Shown one piece after another: positions 7,384 through 20,608 of a stretch of 64,000 nucleotides of DNA. Within the stretch, counting starts at the first letter, position 1, and the number at the start of each line of letters is the position of its first letter. Position numbers and translations under genes: made by a program. The notes below the pieces were generated by a model. That model made no database searches, had not been told where the DNA came from, and saw only the letters and a program-made list of their open reading frames with translations. The stretch lies in the NCBI GenBank assembly GCA_016235345.1, contig JACRLG010000028.1, positions 210,809 through 274,808 on the forward strand. Direction: 5' to 3'. The stretch is from Deltaproteobacteria bacterium (GTDB lineage: Bacteria; Desulfobacterota; Desulfobacteria; Desulfobacterales; Desulfatibacillaceae).

Positions 7384-8445
7384 ATGATGCGTGTAAAAGC
7401 TGTCCGTTTTTCCGCCGTACTCGGTTTCTGTCTCGTTTTCATTTTCGCTTCTTCGGTTTTTGCGGCAAACGCCCCAAAGGCGAAGGCGGCCCCGGCCAAA
7501 AAGGGCAAAATTGTGTGGCGGGTGGCCACTGTGGTTCCGGGCGGCATGGGCTGGAGCAAGAGGGCCAAGGAAATCCTCCTTCCCTACATCGACCGCTTCA
7601 CCGGCGGCGAGCTTGACGTCAAAATCTTCTGGGGCGGCATCAAGGGCGACGACGACGCCATCCTCAGGCAGGTGAAAAGGGGCGAGCTGGAAGGCGGCGG
7701 CTTTTCAGGCTACGGCACTGTTGCGGCATGCCGGGAATTTTCCGTTCTAACCCTTCCCTTTTTGTTCAAAAACTTCGATGAGGTGGATTTCATCAGAAAA
7801 TCCATGTATCCCGAGTTCGACCGACACGCTGAAAACAGGGGCATGAAGCTCCTCTTGTGGGTTGACCAGGATTTCGACCAGATTTACTCAATGAAACACG
7901 ATCTCACATCCCTGGCGAAAATCCGGGCTTCCCACTTCGTGCGCTGGTACGGTGACATAGAAAAGCACCTTTTTACCACCCTTGGTGTTAAGTCCACACC
8001 GGCAAGCATAACGGACATAAACCGCATAATCGGCAAGGGCGAGGTTGACGCGGCAATCGCTCCGGCCATGTGGGTTTTAGGCTCCCAGATTTTTCCCTTC
8101 GTCAAATACATCCTGCCGGTAAAGGTGCGCTACTCGCCGGTGACGGTGATGATTTCCAAAAAAGTCTGGAACGCCGCCCCCGAACAATACCGCATAGATT
8201 ACATGAAGGAGCGCGAGGCCATAACAAGGGAGTTCAACGATTATTCCCGCAAGGACTCCGAACGCTGTATGCGGGCGATGATAGCCTACGGCATTGTGGA
8301 AGTGAAAATCGACCAGAAGGAGGGCGCCCAGTTGCAGGCCATGGCGAAAACCGTCTGGAAACGCGCCGCCGGCGACCTTTATCCCCAGAGCCTTCTGGAC
8401 GAGGTGATTGCTAAGCTGGAGCAGTACCGCAAAGCAAAAGGCTGA
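7384..8445 (+). CDS. DctP-family solute-binding protein, associated with ECF genes
   Basis: A 353-residue periplasmic binding protein of the TRAP-transporter DctP family, with a signal peptide (1-28, ending SSVFA). The mature part shows family features: VATVVPGG near the start, LPFLFKNFDEVDFI, DQDFDQIY and VRYSPVTVMI. GGAGG eight bases upstream supports the ATG at 7384 (or 7387). No dctQ or dctM gene is near. Instead the stop is followed seven bases later by an ECF/Cbi-type T component and its ATPase, an unusual partner set. In the segment where classical DctP proteins have a carboxylate-binding arginine (G-x-K-x-R-x-P), this one has ASHFVRWYG by eye, so the ligand may not be an organic acid. 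It is clearly paralogous to the protein at 26208-27263. Confidence 0.85.
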   Translation: MMRVKAVRFSAVLGFCLVFIFASSVFAANAPKAKAAPAKKGKIVWRVATVVPGGMGWSKRAKEILLPYIDRFTGGELDVKIFWGGIKGDDDAILRQVKRGELEGGGFSGYGTVAACREFSVLTLPFLFKNFDEVDFIRKSMYPEFDRHAENRGMKLLLWVDQDFDQIYSMKHDLTSLAKIRASHFVRWYGDIEKHLFTTLGVKSTPASITDINRIIGKGEVDAAIAPAMWVLGSQIFPFVKYILPVKVRYSPVTVMISKKVWNAAPEQYRIDYMKEREAITREFNDYSRKDSERCMRAMIAYGIVEVKIDQKEGAQLQAMAKTVWKRAAGDLYPQSLLDEVIAKLEQYRKAKG

Positions 8446-13201: not shown

Positions 13202-16200
13202 TTACGCGAAATCGAAGGACATCTGGGTCGGCCCCAAGGGCCTTTTTTTTGCCGGGCCGCGCGGGCGGTCTTCTTCCAAACAGTCTGAAATCTCAGCTAA
13301 AAACGGCGAAATGGCTCGATCTTCGGTGTTGCCGAAAACAATTCTGCGGCTGGCGGCTGTGAACCGCAGGACCCTCCGGGCGCGGGTGGCGGCCACGTAA
13401 AAGAGGCGGCGCTCCTCGCCCGGATCGCCCGGTTTTCCGGGCATATGAAGGGGAAAAAGCCCGTCCTCGCACCCGGCCACGAAAACCGCCTCAAACTCCA
13501 GGCCCTTGGCCGCGTGAACGGTCATGACGGCCACGCGCTGGGCTTTTGGATCAAAGGAGTCCTCGTCCCTTGCCAGGGCTGAAAAGGAGAGGAAGCGGGC
13601 CGTGTCTCCCCCGAAATCATGGGCCTTTTCCGTCAGCCTTTCATATGCGCTTTTCGGGCCGCCCATGGTTTCGGACACACCCAGAAATTTTCCGGCAAGT
13701 TTTATTTTTTCCGCCACGGTCCTGCCCTTCATGTTCTCCGACAGGATGCCGAGATCGGTTCCAAGGGCCACGAGCTTTCTTTGCGGGGCAAGGTCCAGGC
13801 CCGGCATGGGAAGGCGTCTCGCCTCGTGAAGGGCGTCGAAAAGGCTGGCTCCAAGGCGGGCCGAAAAGTCTTCAAGGGCGCGGATGGAAGCCTCGTTGAC
13901 TCCCCTCTTGGCGACCCTGAATATCCGGGCCATGTCGGCGTCGGTGGCGGCTTTTTCCGAAAAACGAAGAAGGGAGAGGATGGCCGGGTTGGGCTGGGCG
14001 TCGAAGAGATTTTTCCTGTCCACGATCTCAAAGGGGATGCCGCTTCGGGCGAAGGCTTCCGAAATCGGGCCGAAAAGGGCCTTTACCCTGACCAGCACCG
14101 CGAAGTCCCCGAAGCCGAAATCCCGTTGATCCGCCCCTGCCCTGCCCGAATCCATGGAAAAATGGCTGGTTCCTCCCACCATGTTCTCGATGGCCGCCAC
14201 TATGGTTTCGGCCTCGGCTGCGGGGGTGGCCGGGCGCGACAGGCGGATGGGGTTCTCCATCGGGATGCCCGATTCCAGGGGCTTTTTGGGCGTCCACAGG
14301 CGGCCTTTTTCCACGATCCGTGAGGCTGCGCCCAAAATGTTATCGCTGCTCCTGTAATTCCGCCAAAGCTCCACCACCCGCGCTTCCGGGTAGTCGTGGA
14401 CGAAGCGGGTGAAGTAGCCCACGTCCGCGCCCCGGAACCCGTAGATGGCCTGATCCGGGTCGCCGATTGCGGCAAGGCTCGCGCCCGCAGGGCATAGCGC
14501 CCTCACCAGCCTGTACTGGCTGGCTGAAACGTCCTGGTACTCGTCCACCAGGACGTGCAAAAAACGGCGCTGGCATTTTTCCCTGAAATCCGGCTCGCTC
14601 TCCAGCATCCGAACCGTGCGGTAGAGAAGGTCGTCGGTGTCCAAGGCCCGGTTCCGGGCCAGAATGCCCTGGTAGGCGGAAAATGCTTCGGGATCGAGCC
14701 CCTCCCCAAGGTCGGGCTCGGCAACGGGTATCCACACCCTGTCCTTGGCCCGGCTGATTTTTTCCGCCACCTCGGCGGGCTTGGCGCCGGAAACCCCGCA
14801 GGCGGCCAGGGCCTTTTCAACGAAGGCCAGCCGGTCGGCCTCCGAAATCACCGAAAAGGGCCTTTCCCGGCCCAGGGTTTCGGTGAGGAGCATAAGCCCC
14901 AGGGCGTGGAAGGTGGCGACGGTGACGCCGGACGCTTCGGGCAGAAGGGCGGATATCCGCTCCTTTAGCTCTCCCGCCGCCTTGTTGGTGAAGGTGACCG
15001 CCAAAACGCTTTCCGGGGCCGCGCCCAGGTTTTTCACAAGATGGGCCGCACGATATGCCAGTGTGCGGGTCTTTCCGGTGCCGGGGCCTGCCACTATGAG
15101 AAGCGGGGCGGGAGGAGCCTCCACCGCCGCAAGCTGCTCAGGGTTCAGTTCCGGGGCGGCGGTTTCGGGCGCGGACAGCTTGGGGTGCGCGGGCTGGTCG
15201 GTCTCTTGGGAAATTTCGTCGGAACCGGCCTTTTCAGCTTTCTTCCTCCCTGCCCTCTTGGGCTTCAATGTCTCAGGAGCCCCGAAAAGCGCGTCCTGCC
15301 CAAGAAGGCTTTCGCGCTCGCCGGGGGCGAAAAGCCCGATTTCGCCGTAAACCCCGTCGTAGCCCGGAATCAGTTCCACCCGGCCCTGGCGAACCCGGCT
15401 CACGGCCTCTGCCAGAAGCGGGATCGGGAGCCTCGAAAGGGCCGCCGTGTCAGCGTTCCGAAGAACCCCGATTTCCGGGCCTATGGCCGTCAGGACAGCC
15501 TCGTAGGCCGCGTTCACCCTGCCCGTGTCCGGGCCGCAGGAAAAAATCTCCGCCAGGATTCCCGAAAGCCCTATAACGCTCTCGAAAACCTGCCTTTTCG
15601 GGCATTCCGCTTGATTTTTGCGGTCGGCAAGCTCGTTCACCCGGTAGAGCACCCCAAGGGTCAGGGGGTCGCCGCACACGGGGCATCTGCCCGAAAGGCG
15701 TACGGATTCTTCGGGATCGAGCCGGACATCGCATTTCCGGTGCCCGTCCGCGTGGTATTTTCCCTCCTCCGGGAAAAACTCCAGGGTGCCGATGAACCTT
15801 TCCGGGTCGCCCGTAACCAGCGCATCCTTAATATGATGGTAGGAAAGCTCCGTATCGAAGATGTTGGCCTCGCGCCCCAGTTTTTTGGCGGAATGTGCGT
15901 CGGAGTTGGACACCAGCACCCAGGGGTCCAGGCCCGAAACCCGCCGGTTCATGGGAGGGTCCGACGACAACCCGGTTTCGAGCGCCGTGATAAAGCCGGT
16001 CAAATCCCCGAAGCACTCCTCTACGGCATCAAAACCCGATTTTTCCCCAAGGAGCGAAAACCAGGGGGTCCAGATGTGGGCCGGGATGAACATGGCTTCC
16101 GGCGAGCACTCCAGGGCGATTTCCAACAGGTCCCTGGAATCGAGCCCCAGGATGGGCCGTCCGTCCGATTTTATGTTTCCGATTTTTTCGAGCCTCTTGT

Positions 16201-16567
16201 TGAAGCGGGAGGCGGCTTCAAGATCGGGGAAAAATACCAGGTTGTGGACCTTGCGGGTCCGCCCATCCTTCTTGTAAATATTTGAAATCTCGACTGATAA
16301 TATGAAGCGCACCTCCGCCCTGCACGATGGCGGAACCGTTTGATCCACCGGCCCGGCGAAATCGTCCTTCAGGCGGAAAAGGCCGGGTTCGGCGGGAACG
16401 AGCTTTTCGGAAATCTCGGCGAACCAGGCCGGATGCGTGAAATCCCCCGTGGCCACGACATTCAGCCCCTTTTTCTGGGCCCAGAAATGGAGGTTCTCGA
16501 AATCGAGGTCGCGGGCCGTGGCCCGGCTCCACTTGGAATGAATGTGCAGATCGGCCAAAAATTTCAT
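13202..16567 (-). CDS. EndoQ-like PHP nuclease fused to a UvrD-type helicase
   Basis: A 1121-residue fusion. Residues 1-420 resemble endonuclease Q, which nicks DNA 5' of deaminated bases: PHP metal motifs DLHIHS (6-11), GDFTHP (41-46), HIWTPW (164-169) and NSDAHS (221-226), plus a zinc site around C269, C285 and C288. A charged linker (about 420-470) leads to a complete SF1A helicase: Q motif LNPEQLAAV, Walker A AGPGTGKT (493-500), motif II DEYQD, motif III GDPDQAIYGFRGAD, WRNYRSS, TVHAAKGLEFE and FYVAATRARR. The fusion suggests nicking at a lesion followed by strand unwinding. The gene stands alone, divergent from rdgC with 98 bases between. Confidence 0.88.
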   Translation of the reverse strand: MKFLADLHIHSKWSRATARDLDFENLHFWAQKKGLNVVATGDFTHPAWFAEISEKLVPAEPGLFRLKDDFAGPVDQTVPPSCRAEVRFILSVEISNIYKKDGRTRKVHNLVFFPDLEAASRFNKRLEKIGNIKSDGRPILGLDSRDLLEIALECSPEAMFIPAHIWTPWFSLLGEKSGFDAVEECFGDLTGFITALETGLSSDPPMNRRVSGLDPWVLVSNSDAHSAKKLGREANIFDTELSYHHIKDALVTGDPERFIGTLEFFPEEGKYHADGHRKCDVRLDPEESVRLSGRCPVCGDPLTLGVLYRVNELADRKNQAECPKRQVFESVIGLSGILAEIFSCGPDTGRVNAAYEAVLTAIGPEIGVLRNADTAALSRLPIPLLAEAVSRVRQGRVELIPGYDGVYGEIGLFAPGERESLLGQDALFGAPETLKPKRAGRKKAEKAGSDEISQETDQPAHPKLSAPETAAPELNPEQLAAVEAPPAPLLIVAGPGTGKTRTLAYRAAHLVKNLGAAPESVLAVTFTNKAAGELKERISALLPEASGVTVATFHALGLMLLTETLGRERPFSVISEADRLAFVEKALAACGVSGAKPAEVAEKISRAKDRVWIPVAEPDLGEGLDPEAFSAYQGILARNRALDTDDLLYRTVRMLESEPDFREKCQRRFLHVLVDEYQDVSASQYRLVRALCPAGASLAAIGDPDQAIYGFRGADVGYFTRFVHDYPEARVVELWRNYRSSDNILGAASRIVEKGRLWTPKKPLESGIPMENPIRLSRPATPAAEAETIVAAIENMVGGTSHFSMDSGRAGADQRDFGFGDFAVLVRVKALFGPISEAFARSGIPFEIVDRKNLFDAQPNPAILSLLRFSEKAATDADMARIFRVAKRGVNEASIRALEDFSARLGASLFDALHEARRLPMPGLDLAPQRKLVALGTDLGILSENMKGRTVAEKIKLAGKFLGVSETMGGPKSAYERLTEKAHDFGGDTARFLSFSALARDEDSFDPKAQRVAVMTVHAAKGLEFEAVFVAGCEDGLFPLHMPGKPGDPGEERRLFYVAATRARRVLRFTAASRRIVFGNTEDRAISPFLAEISDCLEEDRPRGPAKKRPLGPTQMSFDFA

Positions 16568-16665: not shown

Positions 16666-17283
16666 ATGGGATTTTTGTCCGCGTCGGTGGCCGTAACCCG
16701 ATACGCCGTAAACGGCGAGATTGCCGAGCCCTTCATGGAAACCGTGGCCAAGGGCCTTTCCGCCAACGTGATCCAAGAGATCAACGGCGACCCCCAGAAA
16801 CGCTCGGTGGGCTGGGCTCCATTCGACAAGCCCTACACGCCGGATTTTTCGGCGGCCAGCTTCGTGGTGGCCGACACCGTGGTTTTCTGCCTTCGCATAG
16901 ACAAGAAATCGCTGCCCGCCGGGACCGTCAAGAAGATGTACGCCGCCGAGGTGGACAGGCGCTTGCGGGAGTCGGGCCGGGAGTTTCTGTCCAAGGATGA
17001 GAAAAAGGAAGTGAAGGAGCATGTGGAAAACGTGCTTCTGATAAGAATGCCTTCGGTTCCGGCGGTTTACGACGTTCTGTGGAAGTACGGGGAGCAGCGG
17101 CTCTATTTTTTCTCCACCCAGAAGGCCGCCAAGGACGAGCTTGAAACCCTCTTTTACAAGAGCTTCGGCGCGCCTTTGATACCCCTTTTCCCCTTCACCA
17201 CGGCGGAAACCTCCTGCGGGCTCACCGACGCCCAGATTGACAGCCTGGCCCAGGCCGCCCCCTCCACCTTCGCAACGGAGTAA
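16666..17283 (+). CDS. RdgC-like protein, N-terminal part
   Basis: A 205-residue protein matching the first two-thirds of recombination-associated RdgC, a DNA-binding ring protein that restrains RecA. Family landmarks by eye: the opening FLSASVAVTRY, SVGWAPFD, the charged LPAGTVKKMYAAEVDRRL segment followed by KDEKKEVKEHVEN, and the conserved small C-terminal strands. E. coli RdgC has about 300 residues; here the protein stops and a second gene six bases on supplies what looks like the remainder. ATG 16666 has GGAGG ten bases upstream and gives the typical MGFL start. It is divergent from the EndoQ-UvrD gene, so repair genes share this promoter region. Confidence 0.72.
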   Translation: MGFLSASVAVTRYAVNGEIAEPFMETVAKGLSANVIQEINGDPQKRSVGWAPFDKPYTPDFSAASFVVADTVVFCLRIDKKSLPAGTVKKMYAAEVDRRLRESGREFLSKDEKKEVKEHVENVLLIRMPSVPAVYDVLWKYGEQRLYFFSTQKAAKDELETLFYKSFGAPLIPLFPFTTAETSCGLTDAQIDSLAQAAPSTFATE

Positions 17284-17289
17284 ACCGAC

Positions 17290-17817
17290 ATGCTGGACGT
17301 TAACTACAGCTTCAAACGCTACGGCTTCCTGGGAAACGAGTTCCTCACCTGGCTTTGGTACCTCACCGAAAACGACCAGAAGGCCGTGGCGGAAATACTC
17401 AAGGAATCCATCACCTTAACCCTCGGAAACCGCATAGCCCTGGAAAAAAAGAACAAGGACGACGTGGAAAGGGTGACGGTTAAGGGCGACACGGCCAGCA
17501 TGGACGAGGGAATCCTGGCCCTGCGCAAAGGCGCGGTGGTGAGCGAGGCCCACTGGGTGATGGAGATGGCCGACTCCAAGTGGACCTTCACCATAAAGGG
17601 CGCGAGCCTGGACATCGCGGGCCTCAAAACCCCGCCCACGGCCCCCATAAAGATGAACGCCGAGATCGAGGGCGCGGTGCTGGAAAAGACCTCCCTCATC
17701 GACCGGCCCGTGAACGCCGTCAACGCGCTTTTCGCCGCCTTCGCAAAAATCCGCATATCCCCGGAATGGGAGAAGGTGCATGTTACCAGAATGAAGAACT
17801 GGATCCAGGGGGTCTGA
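17290..17817 (+). CDS. Putative RdgC C-terminal part as a separate gene
   Basis: A 175-residue protein starting six bases after the previous stop. Its order of features matches the RdgC C-terminal region: FLTWLWYL, LTLGNRIALE (RdgC has a FxLGDxCEL-type strand), VERVTVKGDTASMDEGI (compare the VVRCKxxDLxSDEI segment), LRKGAVVSEAHWVME and WTFTIKGASLDIAGLK. By length the two genes together make one RdgC plus about 75 residues. The tail after about 120 is extra. The assignment is by eye and not certain. The stop codon lies inside the left arm of repeat A5. Confidence 0.55.
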   Translation: MLDVNYSFKRYGFLGNEFLTWLWYLTENDQKAVAEILKESITLTLGNRIALEKKNKDDVERVTVKGDTASMDEGILALRKGAVVSEAHWVMEMADSKWTFTIKGASLDIAGLKTPPTAPIKMNAEIEGAVLEKTSLIDRPVNAVNALFAAFAKIRISPEWEKVHVTRMKNWIQGV

Positions 17818-19522: not shown

Positions 19523-20608
19523 TTAGACAACAGTGGCACCAATTCGATCTCTCAATCGCGCTATAAAAACTTCAAGTTTATGCTCATCCACCGTATCATC
19601 ATCATTAGCTTCCCATTCGATGCGGTTTCTATGAGCAAGATCAAAGTGTACGCCTTCGATTTTGGCATTTTCGATTATCGGTTTTCCGTCTTTATTATAT
19701 AATGTCCCAATTTTATTACTATATTCATCATATATATCTTGATTCTCCGCCCAGTCTTTACGGCAGGTGTATATGACTTGAAGCCCAAGGCCATAAGCGA
19801 AACCCGCTTCAAAATAAACCCCGCCACGATATCCGGTAAGATCGCAGACCATGAACTTGCTTCTGCGAATTTCCGCAATTATTTTATCATTTATATCACC
19901 ATTATGTTCCACATTATCTATTCTAACAGCACGATATTTTGACTTTTCTTGGCCTTTCCCGGTATATTCGACAGCTTTTTCGATTGCTTTATAAATGATA
20001 TCCATTTTTTGATTGAACCACATTGCAACAAAACATTGATTGCCTTCACCTTTAGTTTTTAATTCAGCTAATCTATTATACCCATTATAAGTAATATTAA
20101 TATCTAACAACACAGAATTAATATTCAGAACAATTAATTTTGAATCATGTATTAGACTAAAAAATGGGACCATATGGCCTGCATCCAAACAATAAAATAA
20201 GGGATAATCATCATATATATTTAATGTTATTTGTTCGCCAACGTAGTTAGTAAGTTTATCTAATCTCAACAAAGCATTATTTATTAATTCAATACTATCC
20301 TTAACTTTATATGATTCATATAAGTCTTTTAAATCCTTAATAGATAAAAAATCATTTTTCCCCTTTAAATTATTTTTATCATCTTCATATCTATTCCTAA
20401 GAATACTGCATAATATTTTTTTTCTGCCACCCTTGAATAGATCATTAATACGCTGTTCATACGAAATATCGAATATATCACTTTTTGTATAAAGACTAAC
20501 AAATCCACATTTTTTACATTTGTACTTCAAATAACTTGAGTCTTGGCTATAAGGTCTTTCATCAATTTCTGAAATATTTGAATCGTCACAAAAAAAACAT
20601 TTATCCAT
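19523..20608 (-). CDS. Zinc-ribbon protein with deoxyribosyltransferase/TIR-like C-terminal domain
   Basis: A 361-residue protein in an AT-rich patch. The N-terminus has paired cysteines (CFFC at 4-7, CKKC near 31-34) that should hold zinc. The middle part is unrecognised. From about 190 there is a nucleoside 2-deoxyribosyltransferase/TIR-like fold: CFVAMWF, then an aspartate-rich strand IDNVEHNGDINDKII, IRRSKFMVCDLTG and the GGVYFEAGFAYGLGL motif, in which the glutamate would be catalytic. Domains of this type cleave N-glycosidic bonds, and several act in anti-phage defence as NAD or nucleotide hydrolases. No sensor or cyclase partner is next to it. ATG 20608 has GAGG upstream. Function as a defence effector is inference. 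Confidence 0.65.
   Translation of the reverse strand: MDKCFFCDDSNISEIDERPYSQDSSYLKYKCKKCGFVSLYTKSDIFDISYEQRINDLFKGGRKKILCSILRNRYEDDKNNLKGKNDFLSIKDLKDLYESYKVKDSIELINNALLRLDKLTNYVGEQITLNIYDDYPLFYCLDAGHMVPFFSLIHDSKLIVLNINSVLLDINITYNGYNRLAELKTKGEGNQCFVAMWFNQKMDIIYKAIEKAVEYTGKGQEKSKYRAVRIDNVEHNGDINDKIIAEIRRSKFMVCDLTGYRGGVYFEAGFAYGLGLQVIYTCRKDWAENQDIYDEYSNKIGTLYNKDGKPIIENAKIEGVHFDLAHRNRIEWEANDDDTVDEHKLEVFIARLRDRIGATVV

Follow-up and report, generated by a model that had tools for sequence, protein, structure and literature searches.

The window analysed here, a stretch of 64,000 nucleotides from a genome assembled as Deltaproteobacteria bacterium (order Desulfobacterales; GenBank assembly GCA_016235345.1, contig JACRLG010000028.1, positions 210,809 to 274,808), contains on its reverse strand a gene whose product combines a homologue of endonuclease Q (EndoQ) with a helicase of superfamily 1A (SF1A). 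The gene and its parts are located as follows, in window coordinates.

13202–16567, reverse strand: EndoQ-UvrD fusion gene, a single intact frame of 1121 amino acids (aa) with an ATG start and 0 internal stops
15332–16567, reverse strand: EndoQ module, residues 1–412, PHP nuclease and zinc domain, delineated by profile, phmmer and structure
15284–15298, reverse strand: internal clamp-type motif QDALF, residues 424–428, at the end of the helix that closes the EndoQ module
15158–15283, reverse strand: flexible linker, residues 429–470 (42 residues), disordered in the structural model, with a predicted local distance difference test score (pLDDT) below 50
13256–15151, reverse strand: UvrD/PcrA-type SF1A helicase core, residues 473–1104, delineated by motifs, Pfam, NCBIfam and fold
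13208–13225, reverse strand: C-terminal clamp-type motif QMSFDF, residues 1115–1120, in the disordered tail

The two modules and their active sites

Residues 5–410 match the NCBIfam family TIGR00375 (E 4.4e-49, 167.8 bits; curated cut-off 326.6, above the score of every match in the order (59 genomes) and in the phylum (297 genomes)), and in phmmer residues 5–411 match PfuEndoQ, the EndoQ of Pyrococcus furiosus (5zb8, E 3.6e-45), to which the module is about 30% identical. Residues 473–1104 match PcrA TIGR01073 (E 9e-119, 397.9 bits; cut-off 911.2), and this half also scores below the NCBIfam cut-offs of uvrD (304.9 vs 1144.45 bits) and rep (316.5 vs 951.45 bits). Pfam finds UvrD-helicase and UvrD_C in the helicase part and no significant PHP match in the fusion protein, the sole one being PHP_C with an E of 0.12. 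The motifs of the helicase are preserved (GPGTGKT at 494–500, DEYQD at 675–679 and GDPDQAIYGFRG at 702–713), and Walker A, DEXQD, GDxxQxIYxFRGA, UvrD_C and the whole helicase fold are all present; in the family alignment, which comprises 54 members including the window protein, A493–T500 except T497, D675–E676, Q678–D679, G702–P704, Q706 and F711–G713 are invariant. An AlphaFold2 (AF2) model built from this alignment, with a mean pLDDT of 87.7, consists of two ordered modules, the disordered linker 429–470 and a disordered tail (1104–1121). Compared by VIA-align, model residues 1–427 correspond to PfuEndoQ (5zb8_B; Z 45.6, root mean square deviation 2.9, 391 aligned) and residues 471–1103 to UvrD of Deinococcus radiodurans (Z 43.7, root mean square deviation 2.5, 606 aligned).

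As judged from sequence and model, the gene product is an EndoQ homologue and a complete UvrD/PcrA helicase in one chain. The first-pass annotation had read 13202–16567 as an EndoQ-like nuclease fused to a full SF1A helicase, and the intact frame, the profiles and both folds bear this out; the fusion is not a chance event because the fused frame recurs across the order.

Within the nuclease module, E93, H108, H164, D223 and H225 pair with the catalytic residues E76, H84, H139, D193 and H195 of PfuEndoQ, and G199 and S201 with its lesion-gating G169 and S171, all of them identical in 54/54 members; H8, in the first PHP motif, is His in 52/54 and Gln in 2/54. The partner of D223, PfuEndoQ D193, is Asn in the PDB entry 7k31, which presumably represents an inactivated enzyme. 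According to a review, E76, H84 and H139, all of them essential, hold the catalytic zinc of PfuEndoQ, whose H139, G169 and S171 shut out T and A (PMC8307549). The site in the zinc domain consists of H276, C279, C295 and C298, i.e., one histidine and three cysteines (HC3) vs four cysteines (C4) in PfuEndoQ; all four ligand places are kept, and the change is a conservative one, with His in 53/54 and Cys in 1/54 at the position of PfuEndoQ C249 (window H276). The earlier description of the PHP motifs and zinc site as typical of EndoQ accordingly holds for the catalytic and gating residues and needs to be amended for the zinc ligands. Because of the HC3 site and the score below the cut-off, we use the name EndoQ homologue and refer to neither a classical EndoQ nor a TIGR00375 equivalog.

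It could be argued that deaminated bases are not what the protein works on in the cell, the PHP module having shifted to another substrate such as AP (apurinic/apyrimidinic) sites, oxidised pyrimidines or ribonucleotides, given the degree of identity to PfuEndoQ, the His for Cys replacement at one zinc ligand, and the fact that uracil is already covered by the uracil-DNA glycosylase (UDG) family in 56 of the 59 genomes of the order. However, the gating residues that pair with PfuEndoQ H139, G169 and S171 are identical throughout the family, and the EndoQ of Bacillus pumilus has been reported to nick at uracil, hypoxanthine, xanthine and AP sites (PMC6202378); we regard a shift of this kind as improbable.

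Two clamp-type motifs

The bacterial clamp motif has been given as QL(S/D)LF (PMC9690074). The C-terminal motif of the present family is QLxLF, with Q kept in 53/54. Among 94 distinct fused frames with uncut ends (the window included, together with two broken frames, L075 and L088, whose ends are not real ends), 75 carry Q[LM]xLF within 15 residues of the C-terminus, as against 0.16% of shuffles of the same residues; a broader clamp pattern matches 87/94, its shuffle control, which applies to the five-residue form only, being 4.6%. None of the 11 ordinary UvrD-like helicases of the order has a C-terminal QxxLF (17 loci were chosen as controls, of which 10 or 11, depending on the analysis, yielded a long enough frame). 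When QxxLF is counted by alignment site over the 54 proteins, it falls at residue 1115 in 46, at residue 424 in 31, and at any other site in no more than 4.

The internal motif stands at the point at which bacterial EndoQs without a helicase have their terminal one: QxxLF closes 20 of 27 standalone EndoQs sampled in other orders of the phylum (shuffles, 1%). In six distinct pairs of separate EndoQ and UvrD genes, the EndoQ end is QxxLF in three and a near form (QLSFF, ELALF) in two; the ends include KQLTLF (L128), GQRSLF (L162) and GQLSFF (L163). The lone EndoQs of the order (L080–L084 and L106) stop before or about the position of the internal motif, as if the helicase and both motifs had been lost together.

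We take Pab0431 to be the EndoQ of Pyrococcus abyssi. A link to PCNA has been reported for Pab0431 (PMC3820547), archaeal EndoQ binds PCNA through a C-terminal PCNA-interacting peptide (PIP) box, and bacterial EndoQ homologues were noted to have C-terminal clamp-type motifs (PMC4858679). As the latter paper already remarks on it, the clamp tag on bacterial EndoQ is not new; its pairing with a helicase and a second clamp tag was not met with in the open papers searched. One of the motifs, or the two together, probably hooks the fusion protein to the beta sliding clamp.

Distribution, gene neighborhood and history of the fusion

TIGR00375 matches were detected in 54 of the 59 genomes of the order (including that of the window), and 51 of these 54 loci were examined at the sequence level. 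That these relatives are Desulfobacterales is inferred from the best hits in named contigs, most of which come from that order (Desulfonema, Desulfatitalea, Desulfobacula). EndoQ and UvrD are both present in 44 of the 51, in one frame in 41 (sorted by hand; some of these frames are truncated or interrupted, by a stop or by a frameshift) and in adjacent frames in three (L076, L077 and L079, two of which are split by a single stop alone); the other seven have EndoQ without UvrD. The fusion is the usual form of EndoQ in the order. Across the phylum, EndoQ is present in 194 of 297 genomes, many of them with standalone frames of about 430 aa; the phylum loci examined come from 40 of the 194 genomes, hand-picked and mostly high-scoring. 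The view of EndoQ as mainly a separate archaeal enzyme, taken in the first-pass annotation, understates its presence in bacteria. Among the best 80 of 593 matching stretches, a selection biased toward near relatives of the query, fusions occur in Planctomycetota, Gemmatimonadota, Chloroflexota and Actinomycetota, and also in Alphaproteobacteria, Verrucomicrobiota, Myxococcota and others (names as given by the submitters). EndoQ is present in 5 of 149 genomes of Actinomycetota, with frames longer than 1000 aa in 3 of these, and in 3 of 121 genomes of Chloroflexota, with such a frame in 1 (the centre genome is included in both cases).

Two genes lie upstream of the fusion gene in the window.

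16666–17283, forward strand: RdgC-like gene, divergent from the fusion gene (Pfam E 3.8e-10; ATG at 16666 read from the DNA)
17290–17817, forward strand: gene of a 175-aa protein beside rdgC, present also in relatives, with no Pfam match

In the order, the fusion gene is often divergent from a co-directional row, rdgC - 175-aa gene - dnaN - gyrB. In the 51 loci, rdgC is a neighbor in 20, dnaN in 21 and gyrB in 22 (the last was recognised by its sequence; the other neighbors were assigned from Pfam), and a lytic transglycosylase follows the EndoQ gene in 15. Of the 35 loci whose upstream sequence spans 5.5 kb or more, 20 have dnaN at a distance of 289–2042 bp; in other orders, a BLAST search with a Desulfobacterales query placed it near EndoQ in none of the 34 assessable loci. 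The window retains rdgC, the 175-aa gene and the transglycosylase. The dnaN synteny is evidence from relatives alone and represents one inherited arrangement. The co-direction of the pair formed by rdgC and the 175-aa gene with dnaN and gyrB in relatives suggests a replication-linked role of both. Farther along, positions 19523–20608 on the reverse strand encode a 361-aa protein with Cys pairs near the N-terminus and no Pfam match.

An antiviral role has been proposed for Bacillus EndoQ and repeated in reviews (PMC8307549, PMC10380557), and the fusion could, by extension, be a nuclease-helicase directed against phages or mobile elements with uracil-containing or otherwise modified DNA. The GajB and RTasHel helicase models of PADLOC match the helicase half, and the gene is sparse outside the home phylum, as the counts for Actinomycetota and Chloroflexota show; in those phyla it may have such a role. 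Within the order, however, the gene is near-universal and its housekeeping neighbors are conserved; EndoQ matches number 0 in 50,697 phage records and 0 in 72,556 plasmid records, and the PADLOC matches listed (25 of 51) cover the UvrD part alone. We consider this role very unlikely.

Ten loci were at first scored as split, and six distinct true pairs remain (L110/L076, L128, L130, L140, L162 and L163), L110 and L076 being apparently the same contig (5675 bases) and counted as one. L077, L079 and L151 are each a single frame with one in-frame stop, which falls either in the linker or where the helicase begins. These stops, near 8032 (L077), 7871 (L079) and 6909 (L151), may reflect a pseudogene, a sequencing error or recoding. 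Inspection of stops and frames in the true pairs covered L128, L130 and L162; the two genes of L162 also lie in one frame, with a stop directly after the motif QRSLF and then an ATG. The genes of the L163 pair are separated by a gap of 884 bases.

A phylogeny of both domains had been put forward as a check. In the EndoQ tree (149 rows, quick LG+G4, rooted on PfuEndoQ with a long root branch; the order's loci were thinned by taking every second fused one, and rows below 380 residues were dropped), standalone proteins are basal, whereas one subtree of 123 rows with a support of 89 takes in every fused row (100) and every split row (9) together with 11 lone and 3 cut rows; its parent branch (128 rows) has a support of 100. 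In the helicase tree, likewise a quick LG+G4 tree, from whose ordinary set L088, a fragment of a broken fused frame, was excluded, the 99 helicase partners and the 11 ordinary helicases of the order are on opposite sides of one branch with 99% support in the Shimodaira–Hasegawa-like approximate likelihood ratio test. Path lengths in EndoQ and UvrD correlate over the 99 shared loci (r 0.82; the rows are related, and the value comes without a significance test). One fusion event followed by losses and splits would be the simplest reading of these trees.

The fusion might also merely co-deliver two enzymes, with EndoQ nicking deaminated bases and the helicase serving as a general UvrD in mismatch or excision repair or fork rescue, with no hand-over at the same lesion. 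A disordered linker and modules whose mutual placement is left open by the model would suit such an arrangement, as would the many genomes in which EndoQ has no UvrD nearby. Against it, the helicase partners are a lineage apart from the ordinary helicases and co-vary with EndoQ; moreover, a general UvrD need not come from the fusion gene because another UvrD-like frame (618–721 aa) is present in 31 of 40 genomes of the order. On balance, we deem simple co-delivery unlikely.

With regard to other deaminated-base repair genes, the EndoQ fusion is not the sole uracil repair in the order, as follows from the prevalence of the UDG family, and the idea that EndoQ replaces UDG was rejected on the same ground. 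The only UDG-superfamily match in the window genome is weak (29.6 bits; contig C24, 113056–113385), many relatives having strong ones; this genome may lean more on EndoQ. EndoV is present in 9 of the 59 genomes, which had suggested EndoQ as an EndoV stand-in; this idea was dropped because no inverse relation was found across the 297 genomes of the phylum (EndoQ and EndoV, 84; EndoQ only, 110; EndoV only, 52; neither, 51; Fisher p 0.27). Since UDG is common, and EndoQ and EndoV are not inversely related, we do not claim that EndoQ replaces either.

Proposed mechanism and comparison with known systems

We propose that the fusion protein is a housekeeping, clamp-tethered nick-and-unwind enzyme for nucleotide incision repair of deaminated bases, which we consider a reasonably probable reading of sequence and model. 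SF1A helicases run 3'->5'. The products of EndoQ are a 3'-OH and a 5'-phosphate (PMC4357722); therefore, it is the downstream strand that bears the lesion, at its 5' end. In the proposed sequence of events, the fusion protein would ride on the beta sliding clamp, held there by one motif or by the two together, and the EndoQ module would flip the lesion (hypoxanthine, uracil, xanthine or an AP site) out and nick 5' to it, leaving the 3'-OH and, on the damaged nucleotide, the 5'-phosphate. The attached helicase would then load at the EndoQ nick, on the intact strand, and move 3'->5' past the lesion, so that the damaged strand comes off as a 5' flap while the 3'-OH stays available to the clamp-bound polymerase, after which a flap nuclease and ligase would complete the repair. 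Given the SF1A polarity, a helicase on the intact strand would peel off the damaged strand, i.e., would work in the useful direction. EndoQ acting alone leaves a nick with the lesion still on its 5' end, and the step that follows would be supplied by the helicase. Clamp binding, nicking activity and hand-over to the helicase are those parts of the scheme that we infer from sequence.

A more elaborate version, which we put forward only tentatively, is a replication-coupled machine in which a single polypeptide would carry out recognition, incision and strand removal. The chain would straddle the beta-clamp dimer, each module contributing one motif; behind the fork it would nick at a deaminated base, and unwinding of the damaged strand would follow immediately, in front of the polymerase on the clamp. 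Such a machine would go back to the addition of a helicase to an EndoQ that was already clamp-bound, with both parts retaining their clamp tags.

Several observations weigh against the proposed nick-and-unwind enzyme or parts of it. Both halves score below their curated cut-offs, and the predicted template modelling score (pTM) of 0.60 means that the relative placement of the modules is not predicted. The tail of the window protein, QMSFDF, deviates from the family QLxLF, a strict internal QxxLF is limited to 31 of the 54 proteins, and both motifs occur together in 28/54. Ten lone EndoQs have neither a terminal motif nor an adjoining UvrD (nine of them sit in the fusion subtree, and L084 is not in that tree), and a UvrD match was found in 0 of 27 standalone EndoQ loci of other orders, in the sequence stretch around each; because these lone and standalone EndoQs adjoin no UvrD, EndoQ works without a UvrD partner. 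The dnaN of the window genome lies on another contig. Finally, UDG-family proteins are frequent in the order, and EndoQ and EndoV are not inversely related in the phylum. With these points taken into account, a self-contained nick-and-unwind enzyme, as envisaged in the first-pass annotation, is the likeliest reading of the sequence and the model; that account is extended here by the two clamp-type motifs, by the neighborhood with dnaN, gyrB and rdgC in relatives and by the changed set of zinc ligands.

In the parts of the open literature that our search made available, there is no description of an EndoQ-helicase fusion (the drawing of bacterial EndoQ domains in Fig. 9A of PMC4357722 might include one), and the EndoQ papers, to the same extent, nowhere name a downstream helicase. 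The natural fusion points to a UvrD-type helicase as the partner of EndoQ and to the clamp as its probable scaffold; the clamp role known from archaeal EndoQ and PCNA would thereby extend to bacteria. The proposed mechanism predicts informative mutants at D223, Q424, K499 and Q1115, and the distribution suggests that nucleotide incision repair is a routine element of genome maintenance across a large set of sulfate reducers.

Compared with the EndoQ of Pyrococcus and Thermococcus (PF1551, TK0887; TIGR00375; COG1379), the fusion protein shares the fold of the whole module, the catalytic and gating residues and a sliding-clamp-type motif at the module end, and differs in the helicase, the HC3 zinc site, the bacterial clamp-type motif in place of the PIP box and the second motif at the C-terminus. 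Standalone bacterial EndoQs, from B. pumilus and from other orders of the phylum, belong to the same family and have a similar C-terminal motif, in the proportion given above for the sample from other orders; unlike the fusion, they have no helicase half. With the UvrD, PcrA and Rep helicases of SF1A the protein has the complete motor in common, whereas its helicase is a separate lineage (relative to the 11 UvrD-like proteins of the order), is located behind a nuclease, has a clamp-type C-terminus and scores below the family cut-offs. AddAB, AdnAB and RecBCD likewise have a nuclease and an SF1A motor in one chain, but act on double-strand ends and have a nuclease of another fold at the opposite end of the chain. 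EndoMS/NucS is an unrelated mismatch nuclease that is not known to be fused to a helicase. In Archaea and Actinobacteria, this nuclease is, like the proposed fusion enzyme, tied to the sliding clamp, which enhances EndoMS/NucS activity (PMC8228993).

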